From a virus: DNA of 64,000 nucleotides. Positions 2,068 through 64,000 of this stretch are shown one piece after another (the first letter of the stretch is position 1; every line of letters starts with the position of its first letter). The notes under the pieces are model-generated. The model saw only the letters and a list, made by a program, of their open reading frames with translations. It was not told where the DNA came from and did not search any database. The DNA is taken from the IMG/VR virus record IMGVR_UViG_3300048922_000467, positions 22,454 through 86,453 of that record. One strand, given 5' to 3'. The position numbers and the translations under genes were made by a program.

Positions 2068-3359
2068 AGCCAGAATGGCGTCTGAGCGCAAATCAAAAGC
2101 GTGTGTACGCCTTGGTCGACTGCAATTCATTCTACGCAAGCTGTGAGCGGCACCCCCTTTGGCGCCCTGATCTTGCTGGGCTGCCGATAGTGGTGCTGTC
2201 GAACAACGATGGTTGCGTGATTGCTCGCTCCAAGGAAGCTAAGACCTTGGGGTACAAGATGGGTGACCCGTACTTCAAGATCCGCGACCAACTCGCCAAC
2301 CAGGGCGTCCACGTATTCAGTTCGAACTACACGCTGTATGACGATCTCAGTAGCCGCGTGATGCTCACCCTGGCCGACTTCGCGAGCGAGCTGGAGGTGT
2401 ATTCGATTGACGAAATGTTCCTCGATCTGACGGGCATGCGGGGCTATCAGGTGATGGCCGAAGAGATGAAGGAGCGCGTGTTTCGATGGACTGGAATTCC
2501 CGTTGGCGTTGGGATCTCTACGACCAAGACCCTGGCGAAGCTCTCAAACTGGGCTGCGAAAAACTGGAGAGGCCTTCCTGGTGTTGCAGTAGTACTTGAC
2601 GATCAGCGGCACGAGCTGTTGCTCAAGCGTGCACCAATTGGGGAGGTTTGGGGGATCGGGCGTCGCTGGGCTGAGAAGCTGGAAGCCAAGGGCATCGTCA
2701 CAGCCTGGCACTTGGCATGCGCGGACAACGAGGCTGTCGGTAGAGAGTTCAACGTCGTACTACAGCGGACTGCTCTAGAGCTCCGAGGCATCCCTTGCAA
2801 TGATCTGGAGCTCCAGGCTCCGAAGAAAAAGCAAATCATCAGCTCACGTGCGTTTGGAAGCCGGCAACAGGGGTGGAAACCAATTGAGCAGTCGATTGCC
2901 AGCTACGTTGCCCGCGCAGCTGAGAAACTCAGAGCTCAGGGGTCGGTTTGTCGGAAGATTGATGTTGGTCTCATTGTGAGGAAAGCCACGTCGGAGAGCT
3001 TCAGTGATGCGTACTCTTCAGCGACAGCCAGACTTCAGCAGCACACCGACGACACTCTCACGCTTCAAGGGGCGGCTGTTTCTTTGGCTAAGATAATCTT
3101 CGACGACAATGCAGTTTATGCAAAGTCCTCCGTGGCATTGAGCGAGATCTGCCAGCCAGAAGACCTCACTACGGACATGTTCGCTGCTGCCAGCTCACAA
3201 AGCCCCAGAGCTAAGGTTCTCGATCAGATCAATGCCAAATTTGGCAAAGGCGCTCTGCGCTCAGCTACGACCATTGGCGACATGCAGTGGAGCATGCAAC
3301 GTGGGCACCTGAGCCCTTACTACACTACGCGCCTGTCCGACCTGCCGAAGCTTCGGTAA
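2049..3359 (+). CDS. umuC: UmuC-type Y-family DNA polymerase V subunit
   Basis: Translesion DNA polymerase subunit that acts with cleaved UmuD. The Y-family fingerprints are intact: YALVDCNSFYASCER near the N-terminus carries the first catalytic Asp, YSIDEMFLDLTG carries the Asp-Glu pair, and a helix-hairpin-helix VWGIGRRWAEKL follows. A C-terminal little-finger/UmuC region runs to the stop. I chose the ATG at 2049, which overlaps umuD by 19 nt; an upstream in-frame ATG at 2022 would give a longer atypical N-terminus. The gene appears full length (436 aa) and functional, so the prophage probably raises host mutation tolerance under UV. Confidence 0.93.
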   Translation: MHAPVLKPEWRLSANQKRVYALVDCNSFYASCERHPLWRPDLAGLPIVVLSNNDGCVIARSKEAKTLGYKMGDPYFKIRDQLANQGVHVFSSNYTLYDDLSSRVMLTLADFASELEVYSIDEMFLDLTGMRGYQVMAEEMKERVFRWTGIPVGVGISTTKTLAKLSNWAAKNWRGLPGVAVVLDDQRHELLLKRAPIGEVWGIGRRWAEKLEAKGIVTAWHLACADNEAVGREFNVVLQRTALELRGIPCNDLELQAPKKKQIISSRAFGSRQQGWKPIEQSIASYVARAAEKLRAQGSVCRKIDVGLIVRKATSESFSDAYSSATARLQQHTDDTLTLQGAAVSLAKIIFDDNAVYAKSSVALSEICQPEDLTTDMFAAASSQSPRAKVLDQINAKFGKGALRSATTIGDMQWSMQRGHLSPYYTTRLSDLPKLR

Positions 3360-3361
3360 AG

Positions 3362-3386
3362 CGTTTCTCTTAACCAAATCACTTGC
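3362..3386 (+). repeat. TTAACCA box, copy 1
   Basis: GTTTCTCTTAACCAAATCAC lies right after the umuC stop and runs into the end of the convergent gene. The same core recurs at 7704-7730, 18401-18431 and, inverted, at 18528-18548. Function unknown. Confidence 0.5.
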
Positions 3387-4032
3387 CCAGGTCAGCCCCG
3401 ATTAGATAGTCAATCGACTCAAACTTCCCGGCATCCATTAGCCGTTGACGAAGTACCTGCATAAACTCTTTGTCATTCTTCAAAAACTTGTCGCACTCAG
3501 AATCAGTTTGGCACTCATCCAGAATATCGGCACGTTCCGGATTAACAACGCGATAGCGGCGAATGAATTCCTCACGCTTCTTATCATGAAAGCTCTGAAT
3601 AAGTGACTTCATACTTCCTCCATAGATCATATCTTTAAACTTACCCATGTACCTAAGGGAAAATTTCATCAGGGCTAAGTCATTTCTAGCGGACAGGCCC
3701 CAGTAGTACTCATCTGCCGCATTTTCTTTGACAATGAGAATCTTGTCTAGTCTAGAAACAAAGCCCTGCACCCAGGCAATGCCAGCAATCTCATTCCCGA
3801 GCTCATGAAACAGCAGGTCTTCGTCAGCAATCGATTCAACCAAAGCCCAGACCTTATAAAATCCTCGCTCGCGATAATAACTCTCCGGCAACGCCAGGAA
3901 GTTTGAGTACAAAACAACAATCAGATCGCGCTCAGACCTGTATTCAAGGCGCTCATAGATTACATAGCCATCTTCCGCTCTGAGCAACACTGGGAATACC
4001 CATTGCAGATATCTAACAAGCGACAGTCGCAT
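3379..4032 (-). CDS. Uncharacterised protein, third gene of a three-gene overlapping operon
   Basis: The start at 4032 follows GGGAGCGAGA, a good RBS; a longer start at 4065 lacks one. It overlaps the preceding gene by 20 nt. The 217-aa product is rich in aromatic and charged residues, with no signal peptide and no motif I recognise. With the genes at 4013-4429 and 4426-5241 it forms a compact operon of three proteins meant to be made together. All three are unfamiliar, the pattern expected of an uncharacterised multi-subunit defence, exclusion or toxin system. Confidence 0.6.
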   Translation of the reverse strand: MRLSLVRYLQWVFPVLLRAEDGYVIYERLEYRSERDLIVVLYSNFLALPESYYRERGFYKVWALVESIADEDLLFHELGNEIAGIAWVQGFVSRLDKILIVKENAADEYYWGLSARNDLALMKFSLRYMGKFKDMIYGGSMKSLIQSFHDKKREEFIRRYRVVNPERADILDECQTDSECDKFLKNDKEFMQVLRQRLMDAGKFESIDYLIGADLGK

Positions 4033-21936: not shown

Positions 21937-22470
21937 ATGAATCGAAAGCTGCTGCTGGAATCGTGCAGAACGCTGGCAGCTGCCGGGGTGTGGTGCATCC
22001 CTGAATCGACTCTGATCGGGTTTGCGGGGTATCCAGACAAAGCTTACTTCCGCGTTGCCATGGCCAGGCATTTTAGAGCCGGCATCATCGAGAAAATCGC
22101 CCCCAAGCTTTACGCCAATCCCTTCCTGCGCCCACCTGCGGCTGGGCTGTTTCGCTTAACCAATTTTCTAAGGCCATTGGACAGCTTTTATCTGAGCTGT
22201 GAATCGGTGCTCAGTGAGCATGGTTGGATCAGCCAGCTGCCTTTCTGCCTGACCTTCGTTACTACTGGCCGAAGCTATCGATACAGCACGTTGCTGGGTG
22301 ACATCGACTTCGTGCACACCGAAGAAGACCCCGCAACCTGGTTAGGCCATCTGCAGCGAAATGAAGACCGTCAGGTATGGGAGGCGTCCCCTGAGAGAGC
22401 CCTGGCCGACCTGCAGCGCTACAAGCGCAACCTTGATCTCGTCCTGCCCGAATCCGAGCGCCCGCAATAG
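21937..22470 (+). CDS. AbiEi-like antitoxin-family protein
   Basis: 177 aa. The sequence resembles the C-terminal region of type IV AbiEi antitoxins: GIIEKIAPKLYANPFLRPPA, then YLSCESVLSEHGWISQLP and FVTTGRSYRYSTLLGDIDF, with ASPERALADLQRY at the end. AbiEi normally represses and counteracts an AbiEii nucleotidyltransferase toxin. No AbiEii-like gene follows; the downstream gene is a coiled-coil protein. It could therefore be an orphan regulator or part of a variant pair. Confidence 0.65.
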   Translation: MNRKLLLESCRTLAAAGVWCIPESTLIGFAGYPDKAYFRVAMARHFRAGIIEKIAPKLYANPFLRPPAAGLFRLTNFLRPLDSFYLSCESVLSEHGWISQLPFCLTFVTTGRSYRYSTLLGDIDFVHTEEDPATWLGHLQRNEDRQVWEASPERALADLQRYKRNLDLVLPESERPQ

Positions 22471-43410: not shown

Positions 43411-43431
43411 AACCCCGCAGGTGCGGGGTGT
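43411..43431 (-). promoter_or_regulatory. Hairpin leader before the cement gene
   Basis: CCCCGC/GCGGGG stem then TTTGTTGTTTCTGGAG on the minus strand, 20-30 nt before the ATG at 43386; nearly the same leader as at 30117. Confidence 0.55.
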
Positions 43432-43448
43432 TTGGCATCGCGCGCGGC

Positions 43449-45500
43449 TTACTGGCCGGCGGACTTGTTCAAGCCGCGAGCATCGAGCGCGGACACGCCG
43501 GCATCGATGCGGACCTTGGAGGCGATACCGTCGCTGGTGAAGCCTTCCTGCTGGTCGAAATACGGCGTCTCGATACCGTCCAGGTAAGCCACCTCGATGG
43601 TGTCCGAGCCTTGCTTGGCCGCCATGTAGTAACTGGTGGCCGAATCCACGTCCAGTCGTGGTTCGGCGATGACCTGGGCGAAGTTGCGGATCGGGTTGTC
43701 GATGCCGGCATTGGTTTCGGCGCCCGGTACCGAGGCCGAGCGGATCAGCTGGTTGGCCTTGTCTTCCAGGGCCACCGGGCACAACAGGAAGGCAGGACGG
43801 ATGTTCAACGGACGCGGCTTGGCGTCCTTGGCCACTGTGGCCTGCTGCAGCGCCATGGCGGTCTTGGCTGCGCTCATCGCCTCGATCGACAGCTTGGAAG
43901 CGGCGCCGGTGAAGAGGTTCTTGCGCGAGGCATCGAACAGCGGTTTGCCGTCCTTCATCTTGCCGTTCTTGATCAACAGGTCGTAGACCAGGTCACCGAT
44001 GGTCGCACGCGCGGCTTCACCCATCAGGCGCGGAACCGCAGTCAGCGCGTCGAGATCATCGTTGATGATCGCCTGACGGTTGATGGTGAACAGCTCGCCG
44101 TAGGTGGCCAGCTGGATGGTCTCCCCGGTGTCGCCCAGGGTGATGTTCTTGTAATCGGCACCAGGACGCACCTCACGCAGCGACGAGAACGACCCCAGGC
44201 CAACGCGGTTGGCGACCTTGAAGTCGCTCAGACGGCCTTTCTTGGTCCAGAGGTGATACGTCTCTTCGGACTTCTCCCAGCCCGCCAGCAGCGACTTATA
44301 GGCCGCGTCGAGCAAGATGTTGCCGAAGTCACTCGAGCCGTGAGTAAAGGCCAGGCCAACCATGCTCATAGGGTGCAGCGTCGAGACCGGCACGCCGCGC
44401 TCGACCAGCGAGGCACGAGCCAGCTCGCGCAGGGTCATGAAATTGAAGCCGTTGTCGTTCTGCAGCTCGTCCAGGCCGGCCCGCGCGTAGATCGAGGCGC
44501 GAACCGAGTCGCCCACCAGGTTGCCGTTGGTAATGTGGCCATGATGGCGGACGGTACCGGTTGGGGTCGTACCTTGGCCGATCACCTCGAGCAGCTTGGC
44601 GTTGGCCTGCTCGAGCGTGCAGTTGGTGTCGTTCAGGCAGGTATCGCGCAACGCTTCGTGCCCGGTGAAGGGGGTGAAGGCCGCCTGAATGGCGGTACGG
44701 CGAGCACCATCAGCCGCCAGGACACGCGCGGCGATCTGCTCGGTGGTTTCGGTGGGGTTGCCAGGCGTTGTTGCTGGCACGCCTGCAGGCGGGGTGACCG
44801 AACCGCGTGGGGTGAAGAGTTGCTGTGCAGCTGGGGGCATGTTGGTGTAGTCCTTCAGGCGGTTGGAGTTGATCGTGGCGAAGGCTTCGATCGGGTCAAG
44901 CAAGGTGTCGGCAAAGCCCAGGGCGACCGCCTCGGCGCCGGTCATCCAGGTTTCGGCCGTCAGCAGCGCCTCGACCTCTTCGACGCTCTTGCCGGTCTTG
45001 GCGACGTACACCGCCACCATGCCGGTCTCGAACTTGTCGAGGGTTTCGGCGTACTTACGCATGGCCTCGGCGTCGCCGCCCTGGATGCCCCAGGGCTTGT
45101 GAACCATCATCATGGCGTTGACCGGCATGCGGATCTCGTCGCAGGCCATGGCCACCACGCTGCCCATGCTCGCGGCCAGGCCGACCACGGTGCCGATCAC
45201 GCGCGCCTTGTGGCTCTTGAGCAGGTTGTACATGGCCATGCCTTCGAAAACGGCACCGCCGGGCGAGTTGATGTGCAGGTTGATCTGCGACACGTCGCCC
45301 ACGGCGCGCAGGTCGTTGGCAAACTGCTGCGCCGAGATCCCCCAGTCGCCAATGTCGCCGAACAGATACACCTCGGCCACGCCGCGCGTGGCAGCGGCCT
45401 TGATGGTGTACCAGCTGCTGCCGGGGCTACCCGTCGTCGTCCCGACCGACCCCTGCGGGTCCATCAGCGGCGGGGGCAGGTTCCTTGTTTGCGTCTGCAT
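43449..45500 (-). CDS. ClpP-like prohead protease / major capsid protein fusion
   Basis: 683 aa. The first about 230 residues are a ClpP-fold protease: INSPGGAVFEGMAMYN, nucleophile Ser in GLAASMGSVVAMA, and MMMVHKPW with the His. The rest, after a Pro/Thr linker, is the capsid subunit (DLVYDLLIKNGKMKDGKPLF, RPAFLLCPVALEDKANQLI). Such single-polypeptide fusions are known; self-cleavage between the parts is likely. Its start lies inside the 3' end of the portal gene. Confidence 0.88.
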   Translation of the reverse strand: MQTQTRNLPPPLMDPQGSVGTTTGSPGSSWYTIKAAATRGVAEVYLFGDIGDWGISAQQFANDLRAVGDVSQINLHINSPGGAVFEGMAMYNLLKSHKARVIGTVVGLAASMGSVVAMACDEIRMPVNAMMMVHKPWGIQGGDAEAMRKYAETLDKFETGMVAVYVAKTGKSVEEVEALLTAETWMTGAEAVALGFADTLLDPIEAFATINSNRLKDYTNMPPAAQQLFTPRGSVTPPAGVPATTPGNPTETTEQIAARVLAADGARRTAIQAAFTPFTGHEALRDTCLNDTNCTLEQANAKLLEVIGQGTTPTGTVRHHGHITNGNLVGDSVRASIYARAGLDELQNDNGFNFMTLRELARASLVERGVPVSTLHPMSMVGLAFTHGSSDFGNILLDAAYKSLLAGWEKSEETYHLWTKKGRLSDFKVANRVGLGSFSSLREVRPGADYKNITLGDTGETIQLATYGELFTINRQAIINDDLDALTAVPRLMGEAARATIGDLVYDLLIKNGKMKDGKPLFDASRKNLFTGAASKLSIEAMSAAKTAMALQQATVAKDAKPRPLNIRPAFLLCPVALEDKANQLIRSASVPGAETNAGIDNPIRNFAQVIAEPRLDVDSATSYYMAAKQGSDTIEVAYLDGIETPYFDQQEGFTSDGIASKVRIDAGVSALDARGLNKSAGQ

Positions 45501-46983
45501 CGGTTTGGTTCTTCCCGTAGATTTGGTGGTAGTAGTCCGAACTCAGGACCAGCTCGGCCGCGCGGTTGGCGGCAATCTCCGCGATCCGCGAGGCCTTGAG
45601 TTCGGACGGGTTGCGCTGCCGGGACCGGGCCACCTCGGCCTCGTCGGCAAAGCCTGCCTTGACCAGGATTTCCCAGGCGGTTGCCTCATGCACAGGGTTG
45701 ATCCAGGGCATGACCGGGCCTTGGTAGAAGGCGCCGTAGAGGGTCCGCTGATCAACGTCAGGTGGCACCCGCAGCTGTCCGCTCATGACCGCCATGCGCA
45801 GCCAGGCCCGGTACACCGGCCGGCACCAGTAGTCGATGAACTCGTGCTGCAGCAGGTCATAGCCCAGCTGGCCCTCGACCAGCTCCTGCCGCTGCGCCGA
45901 GTAGGTGCCGTCGTAGCTGCGGGCCACGCTCGAGTAAGTGCTACGCGCGCCGGCGGCCACCGCCTTGAGCTGACCGTTGCGGAAGCCTTCAAGGAAGGGA
46001 TTCGGGCGGTTGCTCTCGATCATCCCGACTTCCTCACCGGGCAGCAGGTTGTCCATCACCGTACCTGGGGCAAACGGGAAGGTTCGCTGCTGCTGTGTCT
46101 GTCCCTGGGCGGGTGGCACATAGTCGTCAGGCGTGCCCTTCTTGATGTACATGGCCAGCGCGGCGCTGATCCGCGCGGCCACACGCTCGCTCTGCTCGTA
46201 GTCCTTGATGTCCGCCAGGCGGATTACCACCGAGTGCAGGAGCGGCTGGCCTCGGTTCTGACCAATGCGCTTGCGGTTGGCGATGTGAATCACCTGATCG
46301 GCCGGCACGCGCTTGGTGTTGCTCGCCCACTTCTGGCCAACCATGGCCCCTGGATGGCCATCAAGCAGGTGATAAGCCTTCACCCGCCGCCAGTTGTCGC
46401 GCTCGACGCCCTGGACGATGCCAGCGCAGTAGTCGACGTATTCAACCGGCAGGTAATCAGGCTCGAGCAGCTCGATGGCAAAGGGCACACCGTGCAGGTG
46501 CGTATAGCCTGGCACCTTGCCCATGAGCATTTGCCCCAGGGCCTCCCCGTCGCGTAACCAGGTGCGGCACACCAACCGCTCCATCTGCGGCCGGGTCAGC
46601 TCGCCGGAGGTCTCAGGGCGCAGCGACCATTCGGCCCACAGCGACTTGATGGCCGCTGCAAACGCTGTATGCACCGTGCCGTCATAACGCAGGGGAATCG
46701 GCTCGACAGCGATGCCAGGCCCGCCCACTACACGCTCCTCGAGCCGATCGAACAGACCTGTGACCAGGTCGTGATCCTCGTCCAACTTGCGGCACTGCTC
46801 ACGCAGGGATTTCAGCGAGGCGTGCAGCGAGCTGTCGGCGTCTTTTGCCTGTTTCTTGGGCTTGTGCGTGCGTGAGGGCTTGGCGGCCTCGAAGGCCAGA
46901 ATCACGCTGCGGGCACGCATGCGATCGGCAACCACGCGCGGGAAGAACGGCGCCAAGGCGCGGTCGACCAGGTCACCGATCAT
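45427..46983 (-). CDS. Lambda-type phage portal protein
   Basis: 518 aa from ATG at 46983. QCRKLDEDHDLVTGLFDRLE, TWLRDGEALGQMLMG, and ADQVIHIANRKRIGQNRGQP are hallmarks of the lambda B portal family. Located after gpW and before the protease/capsid gene. Confidence 0.9.
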   Translation of the reverse strand: MIGDLVDRALAPFFPRVVADRMRARSVILAFEAAKPSRTHKPKKQAKDADSSLHASLKSLREQCRKLDEDHDLVTGLFDRLEERVVGGPGIAVEPIPLRYDGTVHTAFAAAIKSLWAEWSLRPETSGELTRPQMERLVCRTWLRDGEALGQMLMGKVPGYTHLHGVPFAIELLEPDYLPVEYVDYCAGIVQGVERDNWRRVKAYHLLDGHPGAMVGQKWASNTKRVPADQVIHIANRKRIGQNRGQPLLHSVVIRLADIKDYEQSERVAARISAALAMYIKKGTPDDYVPPAQGQTQQQRTFPFAPGTVMDNLLPGEEVGMIESNRPNPFLEGFRNGQLKAVAAGARSTYSSVARSYDGTYSAQRQELVEGQLGYDLLQHEFIDYWCRPVYRAWLRMAVMSGQLRVPPDVDQRTLYGAFYQGPVMPWINPVHEATAWEILVKAGFADEAEVARSRQRNPSELKASRIAEIAANRAAELVLSSDYYHQIYGKNQTDADANKEPAPAADGPAGVGRDDDG

Positions 46984-52185: not shown

Positions 52186-52515
52186 TCAATCCCCAGTGAA
52201 GTTGGATCCGCCCGCGCCGCGCCGGTTGGAACCTTGGTAATGCTGCTCCGGCCCTTGCATCACGCTAGGCCTTTTCATCTGTTTTATTTCTTGCTCTGCC
52301 GCTTGCAGTTTGAAGCTGAGCTGGGTCACCAGGTGTTCCAGTGAAAGCACCAACCTGGAACCTTCAACAACCCAACCTGACCCGTTGCAATCCGTGCATG
52401 CCAACTCAAAAAACACGCCTTCTACCACTGCCCTGCCCTTGCATGTCGGGCACTTGATCAGGTCCAAGCGGGGCTGCTCAAAGCCACGGTTGGTGCTCTT
52501 TTTCACGTTGTGCAT
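52186..52515 (-). CDS. Small zinc-finger protein (DnaJ-type CxxCxG repeats)
   Basis: 109 aa. CPTCKGRA and CTDCNGSG form one DnaJ-like zinc unit, then a coiled coil and a Gly-rich tail. Lies between the recombinase and Q genes; role unknown. Confidence 0.65.
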   Translation of the reverse strand: MHNVKKSTNRGFEQPRLDLIKCPTCKGRAVVEGVFFELACTDCNGSGWVVEGSRLVLSLEHLVTQLSFKLQAAEQEIKQMKRPSVMQGPEQHYQGSNRRGAGGSNFTGD

Positions 52516-53803
52516 TCTCCTCTGTAATAAATTCGTCGATGGGGCTGCGCGCCTTGCGTGGCTTGGCTTGCGGCCCGTTGTGAGAAATTGCGGATTGCAC
52601 GTCTGTCAACTTGTGAATGGCTGCGAAGCCGATCCCGTCAAGCCATTCGTGCCACTGCTCCAATGCGTCTCGACGCAGACCATTTGCCATGGTCTTGATA
52701 TAGGTGTCAGCAACCTTCCCCAGCGAGTGATTCAGCAGCATTTCGCCAATGAAACCGTCGACGCCCATGTCAAACCATGCCGTGCGGGCGACCTTGCGCA
52801 AGTCGTGACTCGACCAGGCCCGGCAGGCCAGACGGCGGAAAATGGCCGAGGCCTGGCTTTCACTCAGCGGCTGCCCTTTACGACCAGGGAACAGGTACTG
52901 CCCGCTATACCCGGCTGTGATTTGCGCGGCCCGGTACCGCCGTAGAAGCGCAGACACGCGGGAGGTCAGCGGCAGGCGGTGTTCAGATCGAGTTTTGGTG
53001 CGCACTGCGGGAATGACCCACTCCGCATGGCTCAGCGAGAAGTCTGCCCATTGCGCCTGGCGAGACTCGCCCAGACGAGTACCGTGGCAGATCATCAACA
53101 GCACCAACATGGCCTCGGCAGGCTTCTGCTCGAATAGCGCAGCCAACGCGGGTACTACCTCATGCAGGTGGTCTGCGCGCAGCCGGCCATCCTTCGGCAA
53201 GATCTTGGTCTTGATGAAGTGGGTGAACCTCATCTCAGCCATTGGGTTCGCGGCAATCAGCCCCAGCTCACGCGCTTTACCGACAGCTAGACTCAGCACG
53301 CGAAACATCTGCCGAACGTAGGCCGTCGAGAACCTTGCTTGGGCTGGCCACATCAGCAGTTTGTCGAGCGTAGCCGCAGTTAGAGCAGTGATCGGCAGTT
53401 CATCCAAGCGTGGCAATAGCTGCTTGCTGATCACGGTTCTGACCGTGTTCTTCCAAGAGTCGGATAGCGAAGCGTCATTGCCTACTCGATCACTGAACCA
53501 TCGCAGCAGATCGCCTACGGTCACCAGGCCTTCCAGAGCCACCGCATCGTCAGGCCGACCCAGCAAACGCTGTCGCAAGGCTGGAAGCTCTGCAAAGATC
53601 GCCGCTGCGCCGTATTCGGGAAAGCGGGCAAGCCGGTTCCACTTGCCGCGCACGACGAGAAACCAGGTGCCGGCCTTCCGGCTTTGGTCAAAGCGGAACC
53701 GCAAACCAAGGTGGCGTGGGTCGCGGAGATCTCGCACGCCATCCACCATGGCCTGCCGTCGAATCTCAGCGTCGGATACTCTCACTACTGCGGTAGCGCT
53801 CAC
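52478..53803 (-). CDS. Internal tyrosine recombinase
   Basis: 441 aa, GTG start overlapping the upstream stop (GTGA). Catalytic residues are present: R243 (HGTRLGE), H333-x-x-R336 (SHDLRKV), H359 (LNHSLG) and Y368 (DTYIK). It lies deep inside the prophage between early genes and Q, not at an end, and is distinct from the dusA-type integrases. Possible roles are DNA inversion, dimer resolution or regulation of late switching. Confidence 0.85.
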   Translation of the reverse strand: MSATAVVRVSDAEIRRQAMVDGVRDLRDPRHLGLRFRFDQSRKAGTWFLVVRGKWNRLARFPEYGAAAIFAELPALRQRLLGRPDDAVALEGLVTVGDLLRWFSDRVGNDASLSDSWKNTVRTVISKQLLPRLDELPITALTAATLDKLLMWPAQARFSTAYVRQMFRVLSLAVGKARELGLIAANPMAEMRFTHFIKTKILPKDGRLRADHLHEVVPALAALFEQKPAEAMLVLLMICHGTRLGESRQAQWADFSLSHAEWVIPAVRTKTRSEHRLPLTSRVSALLRRYRAAQITAGYSGQYLFPGRKGQPLSESQASAIFRRLACRAWSSHDLRKVARTAWFDMGVDGFIGEMLLNHSLGKVADTYIKTMANGLRRDALEQWHEWLDGIGFAAIHKLTDVQSAISHNGPQAKPRKARSPIDEFITEENAQREKEHQPWL

Positions 53804-54096
53804 GCGGCCACCACGCCTTCGCTGATCAGGATAGCTTGGGTGCGCATGACGCCCTCGGCGTGGTACTGGCGTGCGGTGGCCCGGTCGATCGCTCGACTGC
53901 GGCCGTCGCACGCATCATGGCAGGCGCTGCACGCCCAGGCACCCTGCAGGTCGTTCGGCTTGCTGCCCACGCCACAGGTTCCGGCCATACGGTAATGCGC
54001 CAGCACGGTCGTCTCGGGGTTGCCATTGCACACGTCTGGTACACGCACCTGGCACTCTCGACCGCGCGCGGCCTTGGTCAGCTTGCTCTGCTTCAC
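53800..54096 (-). CDS. DUF1364-type nuclease-like protein (NinX-like)
   Basis: 98 aa. GRECQVRVPDVCNGNPETTVLAH and WACSACHDACDG are the DUF1364 pattern with Cys/His pairs of an HNH-like zinc fold. Typical of the nin-like region of lambdoid phages. Confidence 0.75.
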   Translation of the reverse strand: MKQSKLTKAARGRECQVRVPDVCNGNPETTVLAHYRMAGTCGVGSKPNDLQGAWACSACHDACDGRSRAIDRATARQYHAEGVMRTQAILISEGVVAA

Positions 54097-60836: not shown

Positions 60837-61949
60837 ATGCCTGCGTATTACAACGAGATCGACCCATACGCCGCGCAGTGGCTCCGCAACCTTATTGCCG
60901 CTGGCCACATCGCGCCAGGCGACGTTGACGAACGCTCGATCGAGGACGTACACCCTGATGACCTCAAGCCCTACACCCAATGCCACTTCTTCGCCGGCGT
61001 CGGCGTTTGGTCCTATGCCCTTCGCCGCGCCGGCTGGCCAGATGACCGACCTGTTTGGACCGGTTCCTGTCCGTGCCAACCTTTCAGCGCGGCAGGCGCG
61101 GGCGCTGGGTTTGATGACCAGCGGCACCTGTGGCCGCACTTCCATTGGCTCATCCGCGAGCGCCAGCCTTCAGTCGTTTTTGGAGAGCAGGTTGCAAGCA
61201 AGGACGCAGACCCTTGGCTCGACCTTGTACAAGCTGACGTGGAAGCCATGGCTTATGCCTTCGGGGCTGTCGCGTTCCCGTCTGCGGGCGTCGGTGCTCC
61301 GCACATCCGAGATCGCACGTACTGGGTGGCCCACGCCCACGGCAGCACTGGCAGAAAAAGGGGTACGCACCTTCGAGGGCGGCCTCATGGAAGCGATGCG
61401 CAATCATGGTCTGGACCTGGCGGCAGCGGCCTGCCTGGCGGGATGGCCGACTCCTACAGCCAACGCAAAGGATCAAGTCGAGACACGACGCGGATTACAG
61501 ACGCTGGGCGGGTCAGCACTGCTGTCGGGCTGGCCAAGCCCAACGGCCTGCGATTCGAACAGAAAGCCGTCGCAGGACTTCAAGACACCGAACATCACGC
61601 TGAATCACGCGGCAGTGCTGAGCGGCTGGCCGACCCCCAACGCTGGAACGCCGCAGAGCCTACGCGGCAATGGTCAGGATCCCGAAATACGCCGCTCCCA
61701 GGGCCATCAAGTCAACCTCAAGGATGCTGTGCGCTATCTGATGCACGACCACCCGGCCCGGTTAACGGCCTGTGGGCAGATGCTGACTGGCTCTTCTGCA
61801 GGGATGGCAAGTGGCGGCCAGTTGAGTCCGGAACATCCCCGCTGGCTCATGGGGCTTCCAGCCGAGTGGGACGCCTGCGCGCCTACGGAAACGCCATCAA
61901 TGCTGAAGCGGCGGCGCACTTCATAGCCGCCTATCTCGAAACCCTATGA
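60837..61949 (+). CDS. DNA (cytosine-5) methyltransferase
   Basis: 370 aa. Motif I FFAGVGVWSYALRRAGW, motif IV with catalytic Cys SCPCQPFS, GEQV at the ENV position, motif VIII IRDRTYWVA and motif X GNAINAEAAAHFI are in order. The middle target-recognition part is Gly/Arg-rich. No cognate restriction gene is seen, so it is probably a phage self-protection orphan methylase. It is shared over about 0.9 kb with a second frame. Confidence 0.9.
   Translation: MPAYYNEIDPYAAQWLRNLIAAGHIAPGDVDERSIEDVHPDDLKPYTQCHFFAGVGVWSYALRRAGWPDDRPVWTGSCPCQPFSAAGAGAGFDDQRHLWPHFHWLIRERQPSVVFGEQVASKDADPWLDLVQADVEAMAYAFGAVAFPSAGVGAPHIRDRTYWVAHAHGSTGRKRGTHLRGRPHGSDAQSWSGPGGSGLPGGMADSYSQRKGSSRDTTRITDAGRVSTAVGLAKPNGLRFEQKAVAGLQDTEHHAESRGSAERLADPQRWNAAEPTRQWSGSRNTPLPGPSSQPQGCCALSDARPPGPVNGLWADADWLFCRDGKWRPVESGTSPLAHGASSRVGRLRAYGNAINAEAAAHFIAAYLETL
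61042..61926 (+). CDS. Overlapping out-of-frame GWPTP-repeat protein
   Basis: 294 aa from ATG at 61042, fully inside the methyltransferase gene in another frame. Begins MTDLFGPVPVRANLSARQAR, then SLESRLQARTQTLGSTLYKL, five GWP(T/S)P repeats, and a C-terminal LSPEHPRWLMGLPAEWDACA block. This pattern matches proteins I recall from many phages beside Dcm genes, so it is unlikely to be a chance frame. Function unknown, perhaps methylase-associated. Confidence 0.6.
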   Translation: MTDLFGPVPVRANLSARQARALGLMTSGTCGRTSIGSSASASLQSFLESRLQARTQTLGSTLYKLTWKPWLMPSGLSRSRLRASVLRTSEIARTGWPTPTAALAEKGVRTFEGGLMEAMRNHGLDLAAAACLAGWPTPTANAKDQVETRRGLQTLGGSALLSGWPSPTACDSNRKPSQDFKTPNITLNHAAVLSGWPTPNAGTPQSLRGNGQDPEIRRSQGHQVNLKDAVRYLMHDHPARLTACGQMLTGSSAGMASGGQLSPEHPRWLMGLPAEWDACAPTETPSMLKRRRTS

Positions 61950-62607: not shown

Positions 62608-62889
62608 GTGAACACTCATTTCCTGCTGATGGCCCAGTACGGTGGCCAGGCAATCATCCCGCTCGAGCGCATATGCCTCGATTACTTCAGCCACCTGACC
62701 CCCGAGAAGATGAAGGCAAAGGTCGCCCGAGGCGAGATCAACTTGCCCCTCGTCTGTATGGAAGCCAGCCAGAAGTCAGCTCGAGGCGTACATCTGAACG
62801 ACCTGGCCGCCTACCTCGACGCGCAGCATGCCAAAGCCAAGACCGAGCACGACAAGCTCATGGGTCGCGGTCTTCGACGCGCCTCCTGA
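62608..62889 (+). CDS. PrtN-family (pyocin activator-like) protein
   Basis: 93 aa, GTG start. LLMAQYGGQAIIPLERICLDYF and VARGEINLPLVCMEASQKSA match PrtN-type DNA-binding proteins. In prophages such genes lie beside integrases and may act as excision or late-gene activators rather than pyocin regulators. Overlaps the integrase 3' end by 32 nt. Confidence 0.8.
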   Translation: MNTHFLLMAQYGGQAIIPLERICLDYFSHLTPEKMKAKVARGEINLPLVCMEASQKSARGVHLNDLAAYLDAQHAKAKTEHDKLMGRGLRRAS

Positions 62890-64000
62890 TTCTCTTCCGG
62901 GCCTCGATCACGGGGCCCGCTATCACCCTGTCGATCCATCCCCACCCCGCATACGGATCGCCATTCCCCCGCAGGTGCGTATAGCGCCGCATCGAGTTCC
63001 AATCCCGGTGACCGGAAACGGAGGCCACCTTCGGGATATCCCACCCCATTTCGAAAAGCCGGCTCACGCCATCATGACGTAGGTCGTGAAAATGCAGGTC
63101 GTCGATCTCTAGAAAATTGCATGCCCTGGTGAACGAGGCCGATATCGACTTCGAGTTGTACGGAAAAACCTCGCTGGCTACACGCGGCATCGACTGCAGG
63201 ATGCGCCAGGCTTCGTCCGGCAAATGGCACCACACGTCATTCCCATATTTCTGCCCAGGGTTCTTCATGTCGGTGATGAGGGCTGACCGGTCCTTGTCGT
63301 TGAGCGAATCCCAGCGTATGCGTGTGATCTCCTCCTGCCGCCGGGTAGAGAAGAGCGCGAATAGCACCACCCGAAGCATATCGATCTCCTGCTTGCGACG
63401 GTCGCGCATCTCGTCGAAGTACGCTAGCAGGCGCTCAAGCTCGTCCAGAGTCGGCCGTCGGTTTCGCTCGCGGCTTTTGCTGACCGCGCCCATCTTCCTC
63501 AGTACCTTCCGGGCGTCGGGCATAGCGTGCGGATCAACTTCATAGCCCCAGGCCGGCCGCGCGACGGAGAGAACCGCGCCTAGGTGCGCCAAGTCGTTGC
63601 CCACAGTCTGTGCCTGAATGCCGCTGTTCTCCATCCGCCACATGGCGTACTCGACCAGCTTCTGGCTGGTTAGGTCTGTGTCCGCAACCTCGCCCAGCCA
63701 AGTTTCCTTGATGGCGTTCAGGGTAGCGCGTTTCGTTTTGCCCAATGGGCGCAACTTCTCGTACTGATCCAGGTAACGGTCGACCATGTGCTTGACCGTG
63801 ACGCCGCCGCGGTTCGCCTTGTCGATCGCGCCTGGCTCATGTAGCTCGGCCTCGCGCTTCCTGATCCAGGCCTGCGCTGTAGCCTTGCGATCGAACGTCT
63901 GGCTTTCCTGATAAACTGACTGACCCTTCTTCATGATCCGGATCTGCGCGGTGTACGCTGCAGACCCATCCTTGCGCTTCCGAAGCGTGATGGTTCCCAT
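62858..64000 (-). CDS. dusA-type tyrosine integrase of prophage B
   Basis: 380 aa, apparently complete with ATG at 64000. Catalytic residues: R221 (STRRQEE; R220 is an alternative), H305-x-x-R308 (FHDLRHD), H331 (SGHRDW) and Y340 (RRYTH). Strong resemblance to the integrase at 24199-25290 in FPYNSKSISASFTRAC and DLHFHDLRHD. By analogy, attR and intact dusA should lie about 0.15 kb beyond its start, outside the window. Confidence 0.92.
   Translation of the reverse strand: MGTITLRKRKDGSAAYTAQIRIMKKGQSVYQESQTFDRKATAQAWIRKREAELHEPGAIDKANRGGVTVKHMVDRYLDQYEKLRPLGKTKRATLNAIKETWLGEVADTDLTSQKLVEYAMWRMENSGIQAQTVGNDLAHLGAVLSVARPAWGYEVDPHAMPDARKVLRKMGAVSKSRERNRRPTLDELERLLAYFDEMRDRRKQEIDMLRVVLFALFSTRRQEEITRIRWDSLNDKDRSALITDMKNPGQKYGNDVWCHLPDEAWRILQSMPRVASEVFPYNSKSISASFTRACNFLEIDDLHFHDLRHDGVSRLFEMGWDIPKVASVSGHRDWNSMRRYTHLRGNGDPYAGWGWIDRVIAGPVIEARKRIRRRVEDRDP

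Follow-up and report, generated by a model that had tools for sequence, protein, structure and literature searches.

A phage C5-cytosine methyltransferase gene with two selected reading frames, the second of which probably encodes a recognition subunit

The window analyzed here comprises 64,000 nucleotides of the IMG/VR virus record IMGVR_UViG_3300048922_000467 (positions 22,454 to 86,453) and contains a stretch in which two long reading frames, termed frame A and frame B, are both open (Table 1). Frame A encodes the catalytic subunit of a C5-cytosine DNA methyltransferase; it matched PF00145 (2.7e-11) and phrog_363 (4e-89), and a PDB match by sequence covered residues 71-170 of M.HhaI. The motifs that support its membership in PF00145 are all present, namely I (60990), IV with PCQ (61071), VI with its glutamate in the form FGEQV (61179), VIII (61293), and X (61872). 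The first-pass annotation had credited this frame with all C5-methyltransferase motifs, but no recognizable motif IX was found in frame A; the motif IX equivalent sits in frame B.

Frame B is shifted by +1 and lies wholly within frame A, the overlap being 969 nt; the open reading frame as listed extends from 60895 to 61926. Its product matched phrog_31772 (1.5e-39) and phrog_1008 (1e-34), each named 'DNA methyltransferase', but there was no match in Pfam or NCBIfam, and a PDB sequence search with the frame B profile returned no meaningful matches. The GWPTP repeats noticed earlier in frame B are present, except that only three of them read GWPTP and the fourth is GWPSP, and the ending of the protein was confirmed as RWLMGLPAEW.

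Table 1. Features of the overlapping methyltransferase gene and dNN/dNS values of its regions (intervals in brackets).
Feature	Position	Strand	Remarks
Frame A, catalytic subunit of C5-cytosine DNA methyltransferase, 370 aa	60837..61949	+	PF00145, phrog_363 and M.HhaI matches
Frame B (+1), probable target-recognition/motif-IX subunit, 322 aa	60958..61926	+	phrog matches, purifying selection, profile match to C-termini of single-chain methyltransferases
GAGGA, weak Shine-Dalgarno-like stretch	60942..60946	+	inferred; 11 nt spacing to frame B ATG
Probable frame B start codon ATG	60958..60960	+	Asp GAT codon of frame A plus G
Region N, only frame A constrained	60837..61034	+	B 0.91, A 0.12
Region B1, both frames constrained	61062..61325	+	B 0.34 (0.28-0.39), A 0.20
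Region B2 (repeats), only frame B constrained	61326..61760	+	B 0.19 (0.16-0.23), A 1.19 (1.01-1.39)
Region B3, both frames constrained	61761..61910	+	B 0.27 (0.18-0.35), A 0.22
Four GW[PS][TS]P repeats of frame B	61324, 61441, 61528, 61624	+	
RWLMGLPAEW of frame B, motif IX equivalent	61840..61869	+	homologous to EWMMGWPAGW of single-chain relatives
RLRAYGNAI of frame A, motif X	61872..61898	+	conserved across frame A alignment

Relatives were collected by tblastn, which found frame B in 194 phage records and frame A in 336. The loci found with frame A alone were not picked for frame B; they contained 32 frame B stops, most of them at the natural end of the protein, compared to 226 expected when the synonymous codons of frame A were shuffled, and 861 stops in the third frame. 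Among 149 distinct loci, a set for which an uninterrupted frame A was required, frame B was open from motif IV to the RWLMGLPAEW-type ending in nearly all. Stops more than 90 nt before the end of frame A occurred in five of the 149, and deep inside frame B only in locus L160, where a stop at codon 90 after motif IV marks either a natural copy lacking B or a sequencing error. The set unbiased for frame A consists of 79 loci found with frame B. In their match region, 23 stops were present in B and 24 in A, compared to 1169 in the third frame, and 23 of the 24 frame A stops came from a single frame-shifted locus, L077. This locus (2434-3580) was considered as a free-standing frame B gene and rejected, because it turned out to be the dual gene, frame-shifted close to motif IV, with both proteins recognizable in pieces. 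No case of frame B without frame A was seen in the loci scanned.

Viral contigs were also scanned for the ending pattern NPxFVxEMMxFP, independently of any methyltransferase. Among the matches listed there were 80 loci with a GC content of 32-55%. The ending could be located in 78 of them, and 73 of these showed the full dual layout; of the other five, four were cut short (frame A open, fewer than 150 codons) and one, L360, had one frame A stop. In the low-GC set, frame B was open in 69 of 70 distinct loci, with one stop compared to 279 expected and 993 in the third frame; named examples are Bacteroides phage BS-TP4 and Lacticaseibacillus phage R23.9. E. coli dcm, which has its own motif IX and served as negative control, contains 14 stops in the +1 frame. 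Frequent stops in frame B of homologues had been named at the outset as the observation that would speak against dual coding; they were looked for, and frame B proved nearly free of stops in the relatives.

To analyze selection on both frames, we sorted the substitutions of 47 independent pairs into those changing A, B, both or neither and calculated dNN/dNS for each region (Table 1). Frame B is under purifying selection across the whole overlap (0.19-0.34), the outcome of the codon-substitution check that the first-pass annotation had proposed, and its constraint is visible from about 61062. The +2 control frame gave values of 1.3-2.1. Region B1 contains motifs IV-VIII of frame A together with ANLSARQAK...LTWK...RASV.RTS of frame B, and region B3 contains motif X of frame A and the motif-IX-like element of frame B. 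In region B2, the differences at frame A codon positions 1, 2, and 3 were 0.201, 0.072, and 0.047; they concentrate at position 1 of A, which is position 3 of B. Frame A is thus neutral (1.19) where the target-recognition domain of a methyltransferase should be, and a recognition domain and motif IX on one chain were not found in it. In the neutral region, 0 frame A stops were counted compared to 298 expected if only B mattered; this set had been chosen for an open frame A, and the same absence was seen in the 79-locus set chosen with B. In region B2, frame A amounts to a neutral linker in which stops are avoided. The claim that two conserved proteins are encoded by one stretch in different frames was borne out: both frames are open, frame B is selected, and the dual coding is real.

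The start of frame B had been placed at 61042, but the ATG at this position is present in only 62 of the 149 loci and seldom preceded by a Shine-Dalgarno sequence. The probable start codon is the ATG at 60958, about 40 codons inside frame A. GAT followed by G in frame A creates an ATG in frame B, and the use of Asp codons at the corresponding residues of frame A was skewed: the ratio for GAT was 124:20 at residue 37 and 56:22 at residue 41, compared to 79:188 for the other Asp codons in the same region of frame A (Fisher, 1e-29 and 3e-11, respectively, ignoring the kinship of the loci). Codon choice favors ATGs at the start of frame B. An ATG at frame A residue 31, 37 or 41 was present in 143 of the 149 loci.

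The counterparts of frame B in other phages are arranged in two further ways. Gp70 of Mycobacterium phage ShiLan, gp27 of prophiGD91-2, and their relatives are single-chain methyltransferases of actinophages, in which motif VIII, LPTP repeats, the element EWMMGWPAGW, and then motif X (GNGV) follow each other in one frame. They resemble the window in having TP repeats and an EWMMGWP element after motif VIII and differ from it in that everything is in one frame with motif X last. In Gordonia phage Jumbo, locus L429, and other viral contigs, frame A ends some 20 codons behind motif VIII; the repeats, EWMMGWP, and motif X are found in the +1 frame. An hhalign comparison of frame B with the single-chain enzymes gave a probability of 95.9 (E 6e-9) over a match spanning the repeats and WLMGLP. 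The single-chain profile in turn aligned EWLMGWPAGW...GNGVV with residues 274-307 of M.HhaI, RECARVMGYPDSY...GNSVV, i.e., motifs IX and X, although this segment of the match is weak (-3.2 bits). A tree of the architectures, with few rows and weak support, gave no order of the forms. Since the single-chain methyltransferases carry, in frame, a homologue of the repeat and motif-IX part, frame B looks like a relocated part of the enzyme and not like a newly invented protein. The suggestion that it could be an original overprinted gene was not supported, as frame B has hundreds of phage relatives and its repeat/motif-IX part occurs in-frame in the single-chain enzymes. A de novo overprinted gene should have no relatives outside the overlap, and frame B has such relatives; judged by sequence homology, it is no orphan overprinted gene of this genome.

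AlphaFold produced a poor model for frame B alone (pLDDT 61, pTM 0.31), and a fold search with this model against the PDB gave no match. Against a viral library, four good matches were obtained, all of them phage proteins, and the named ones were a 'methyltransferase' and an uncharacterized protein at sites where frame B was found. The frame B model is also matched, via BFVD, by UniProt E7EKU9 of Edwardsiella phage eiDWF, a viral entry named 'methyltransferase', so that B-frame products probably go by this name in public databases. For the single-chain relative L412, AlphaFold was confident in the methyltransferase core and in the IX-X part but gave the repeats no confident structure. Since the repeat region is unconfident even in the single-chain model, the assignment of the repeats as recognition domain rests on position and selection.

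Among known enzymes, M.EcoHK31I is a two-polypeptide C5 methyltransferase of a restriction-modification system and has the target YGGCCR. Lee, Kam and Shaw (1995) reportedly found the small subunit to be translated from an alternative frame inside the large gene and both subunits to be required for activity in vitro. The window resembles this reported gene layout in that the smaller chain is nested, in a different frame, within the gene of the larger one. The large subunit of M.EcoHK31I carries motifs I-VIII and X and the small subunit motif IX, and the recognition domain has been predicted to lie in the large subunit (PMC3404938). The distribution of motifs I-VIII and X to chain A and of motif IX to chain B is the same in the window, a likeness of layout; the match of the motif IX element to M.HhaI itself is weak. 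Unlike M.EcoHK31I, the window has a neutral recognition stretch in frame A and the constrained repeats in frame B. M.AquI is a split C5 methyltransferase with motifs I-VIII on the alpha chain and IX-X on the small beta chain (PMC3404938). It shares with the window the separation of catalysis and motif IX on two chains, whereas the window keeps motif X on frame A. The relatives of the Jumbo and L429 type, whose second chain carries motif IX as well as motif X, fit M.AquI better.

The pair seen in the window has been annotated before. In Escherichia phage K1G, the same overlapping pair is annotated as 'C-specific methylase' and 'Mte8-like protein' without comment, both ORFs are likewise annotated without comment in the PhiXhv-28 record, and PHROG 363 with PHROGs 1008 and 31772 constitutes this pair again. 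Our literature search turned up no paper that describes this overlap or assigns a function to the second ORF. In some prophages of E. coli chromosomes (L197, L198), RefSeq splits the methyltransferase into two incomplete CDS, for which the variability of its middle region is the probable cause. Plasmid H135 of Klebsiella aerogenes was considered as a possible EaeI restriction-modification locus and rejected, the region being of phage type.

Taken together, we regard the stretch as one gene for a two-protein C5-cytosine methyltransferase in which B is the recognition/motif-IX subunit and assembles with A, and assign this reading a probability of about 0.78. The product of frame A would be the large catalytic subunit responsible for AdoMet binding and catalysis and containing motif X, and the product of frame B, translated from its own ATG, would be a smaller subunit with the GW[PS][TS]P target-recognition repeats and motif IX. 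Since frame A alone has no constrained recognition domain and no motif IX, A and B most likely assemble, and since single-chain and split relatives carry the B-type repeats and motif, B is most likely the recognition/motif-IX subunit. Judged from its position, frame B presumably supplies target recognition; we infer that it is translated, binds A, and sets the specificity. The assembled proteins would form an active sequence-specific enzyme, which may shield the phage DNA by methylation.

A real and selected protein with a different job, e.g., in anti-restriction or as a regulator of the methyltransferase, and no part of the enzyme, would likewise show up as an ORF of its own, under selection and with a likely start, and the poor AlphaFold model and the missing PDB fold match would fit such a protein. 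We consider this improbable, as the repeat/motif-IX part of B is in-frame in the single-chain methyltransferases and stands beside motif X in the split ones, frame A lacks exactly the parts present in B, and B was never seen without A in the scanned loci. Slightly less probable still is a +1 shift of the ribosome from A into B, by which the N-terminal part of A would be fused to B and B would not be a separate protein. Such a shift downstream of motif VIII would indeed generate a complete ShiLan-like single chain in the split relatives (Jumbo, L429, and others). In the family of the window, however, the constraint on B already sets in at motif IV, before any position at which a shift would be useful; shifting there would cost motifs VI and VIII, and shifting beyond motif VIII would cost motif X. 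The ATG codons favored at the start of frame B, and the fact that frame A retains motif X and stays open across the neutral region, argue against it as well. Finally, conservation and codon bias of frame A might keep the +1 frame open and conserved-looking as a by-product. For GC-rich members, the shuffling predicts no more than about three frame B stops for each locus, so that a single locus proves little. Nevertheless, we judge this explanation very improbable, because substitutions in region B2 track the codon positions of B while A is neutral, the low-GC relatives are almost free of B stops, and dcm is interrupted repeatedly in +1.

The two-protein reading would account for the lack of a conserved recognition domain in many phage C5 methyltransferases and for the two 'DNA methyltransferase' families of PHROGs that look unrelated but occur at one place, and would make clear how frame A cloned alone could yield an inactive or unspecific enzyme. 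It also provides a directly testable example of one enzyme shared out between two frames; among the related phages, dual, split, and single-chain forms all occur. To our knowledge, extended same-strand dual coding with clean evidence that both proteins are selected is seldom encountered in bacteria and their phages; here it recurs in phages whose hosts belong to at least five phyla (Proteobacteria, Bacteroidota, Firmicutes, Actinobacteria, and cyanobacteria). The principle of two-chain C5 methyltransferases is already known. As far as the literature searched shows, what is new is how widely the overlapping form occurs in phages, the demonstration that both frames are under selection, the neutral recognition region of frame A, and the occurrence of dual, split, and single-frame forms in one family. 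A bolder and tentative idea, which we think has the odds against it, is that of a very widespread and deeply conserved class of phage methyltransferases with the recognition subunit in the +1 frame of the catalytic one, in which the variable GWPTP-type repeats would be interchangeable recognition units and specificity would evolve in B while A tolerates any readable linker.

Two further observations concern other parts of the window. ORFs of 723 and 683 aa on opposite strands, at 43428-45599 (+) and 43449-45500 (-), overlap almost completely, and one of them is probably spurious. Two tyrosine integrases with phrog_1 matches are encoded at 52478-53911 (-) and 62858-64000 (-) in this one 86-kb virus record, possibly reflecting two adjacent prophages or elements.
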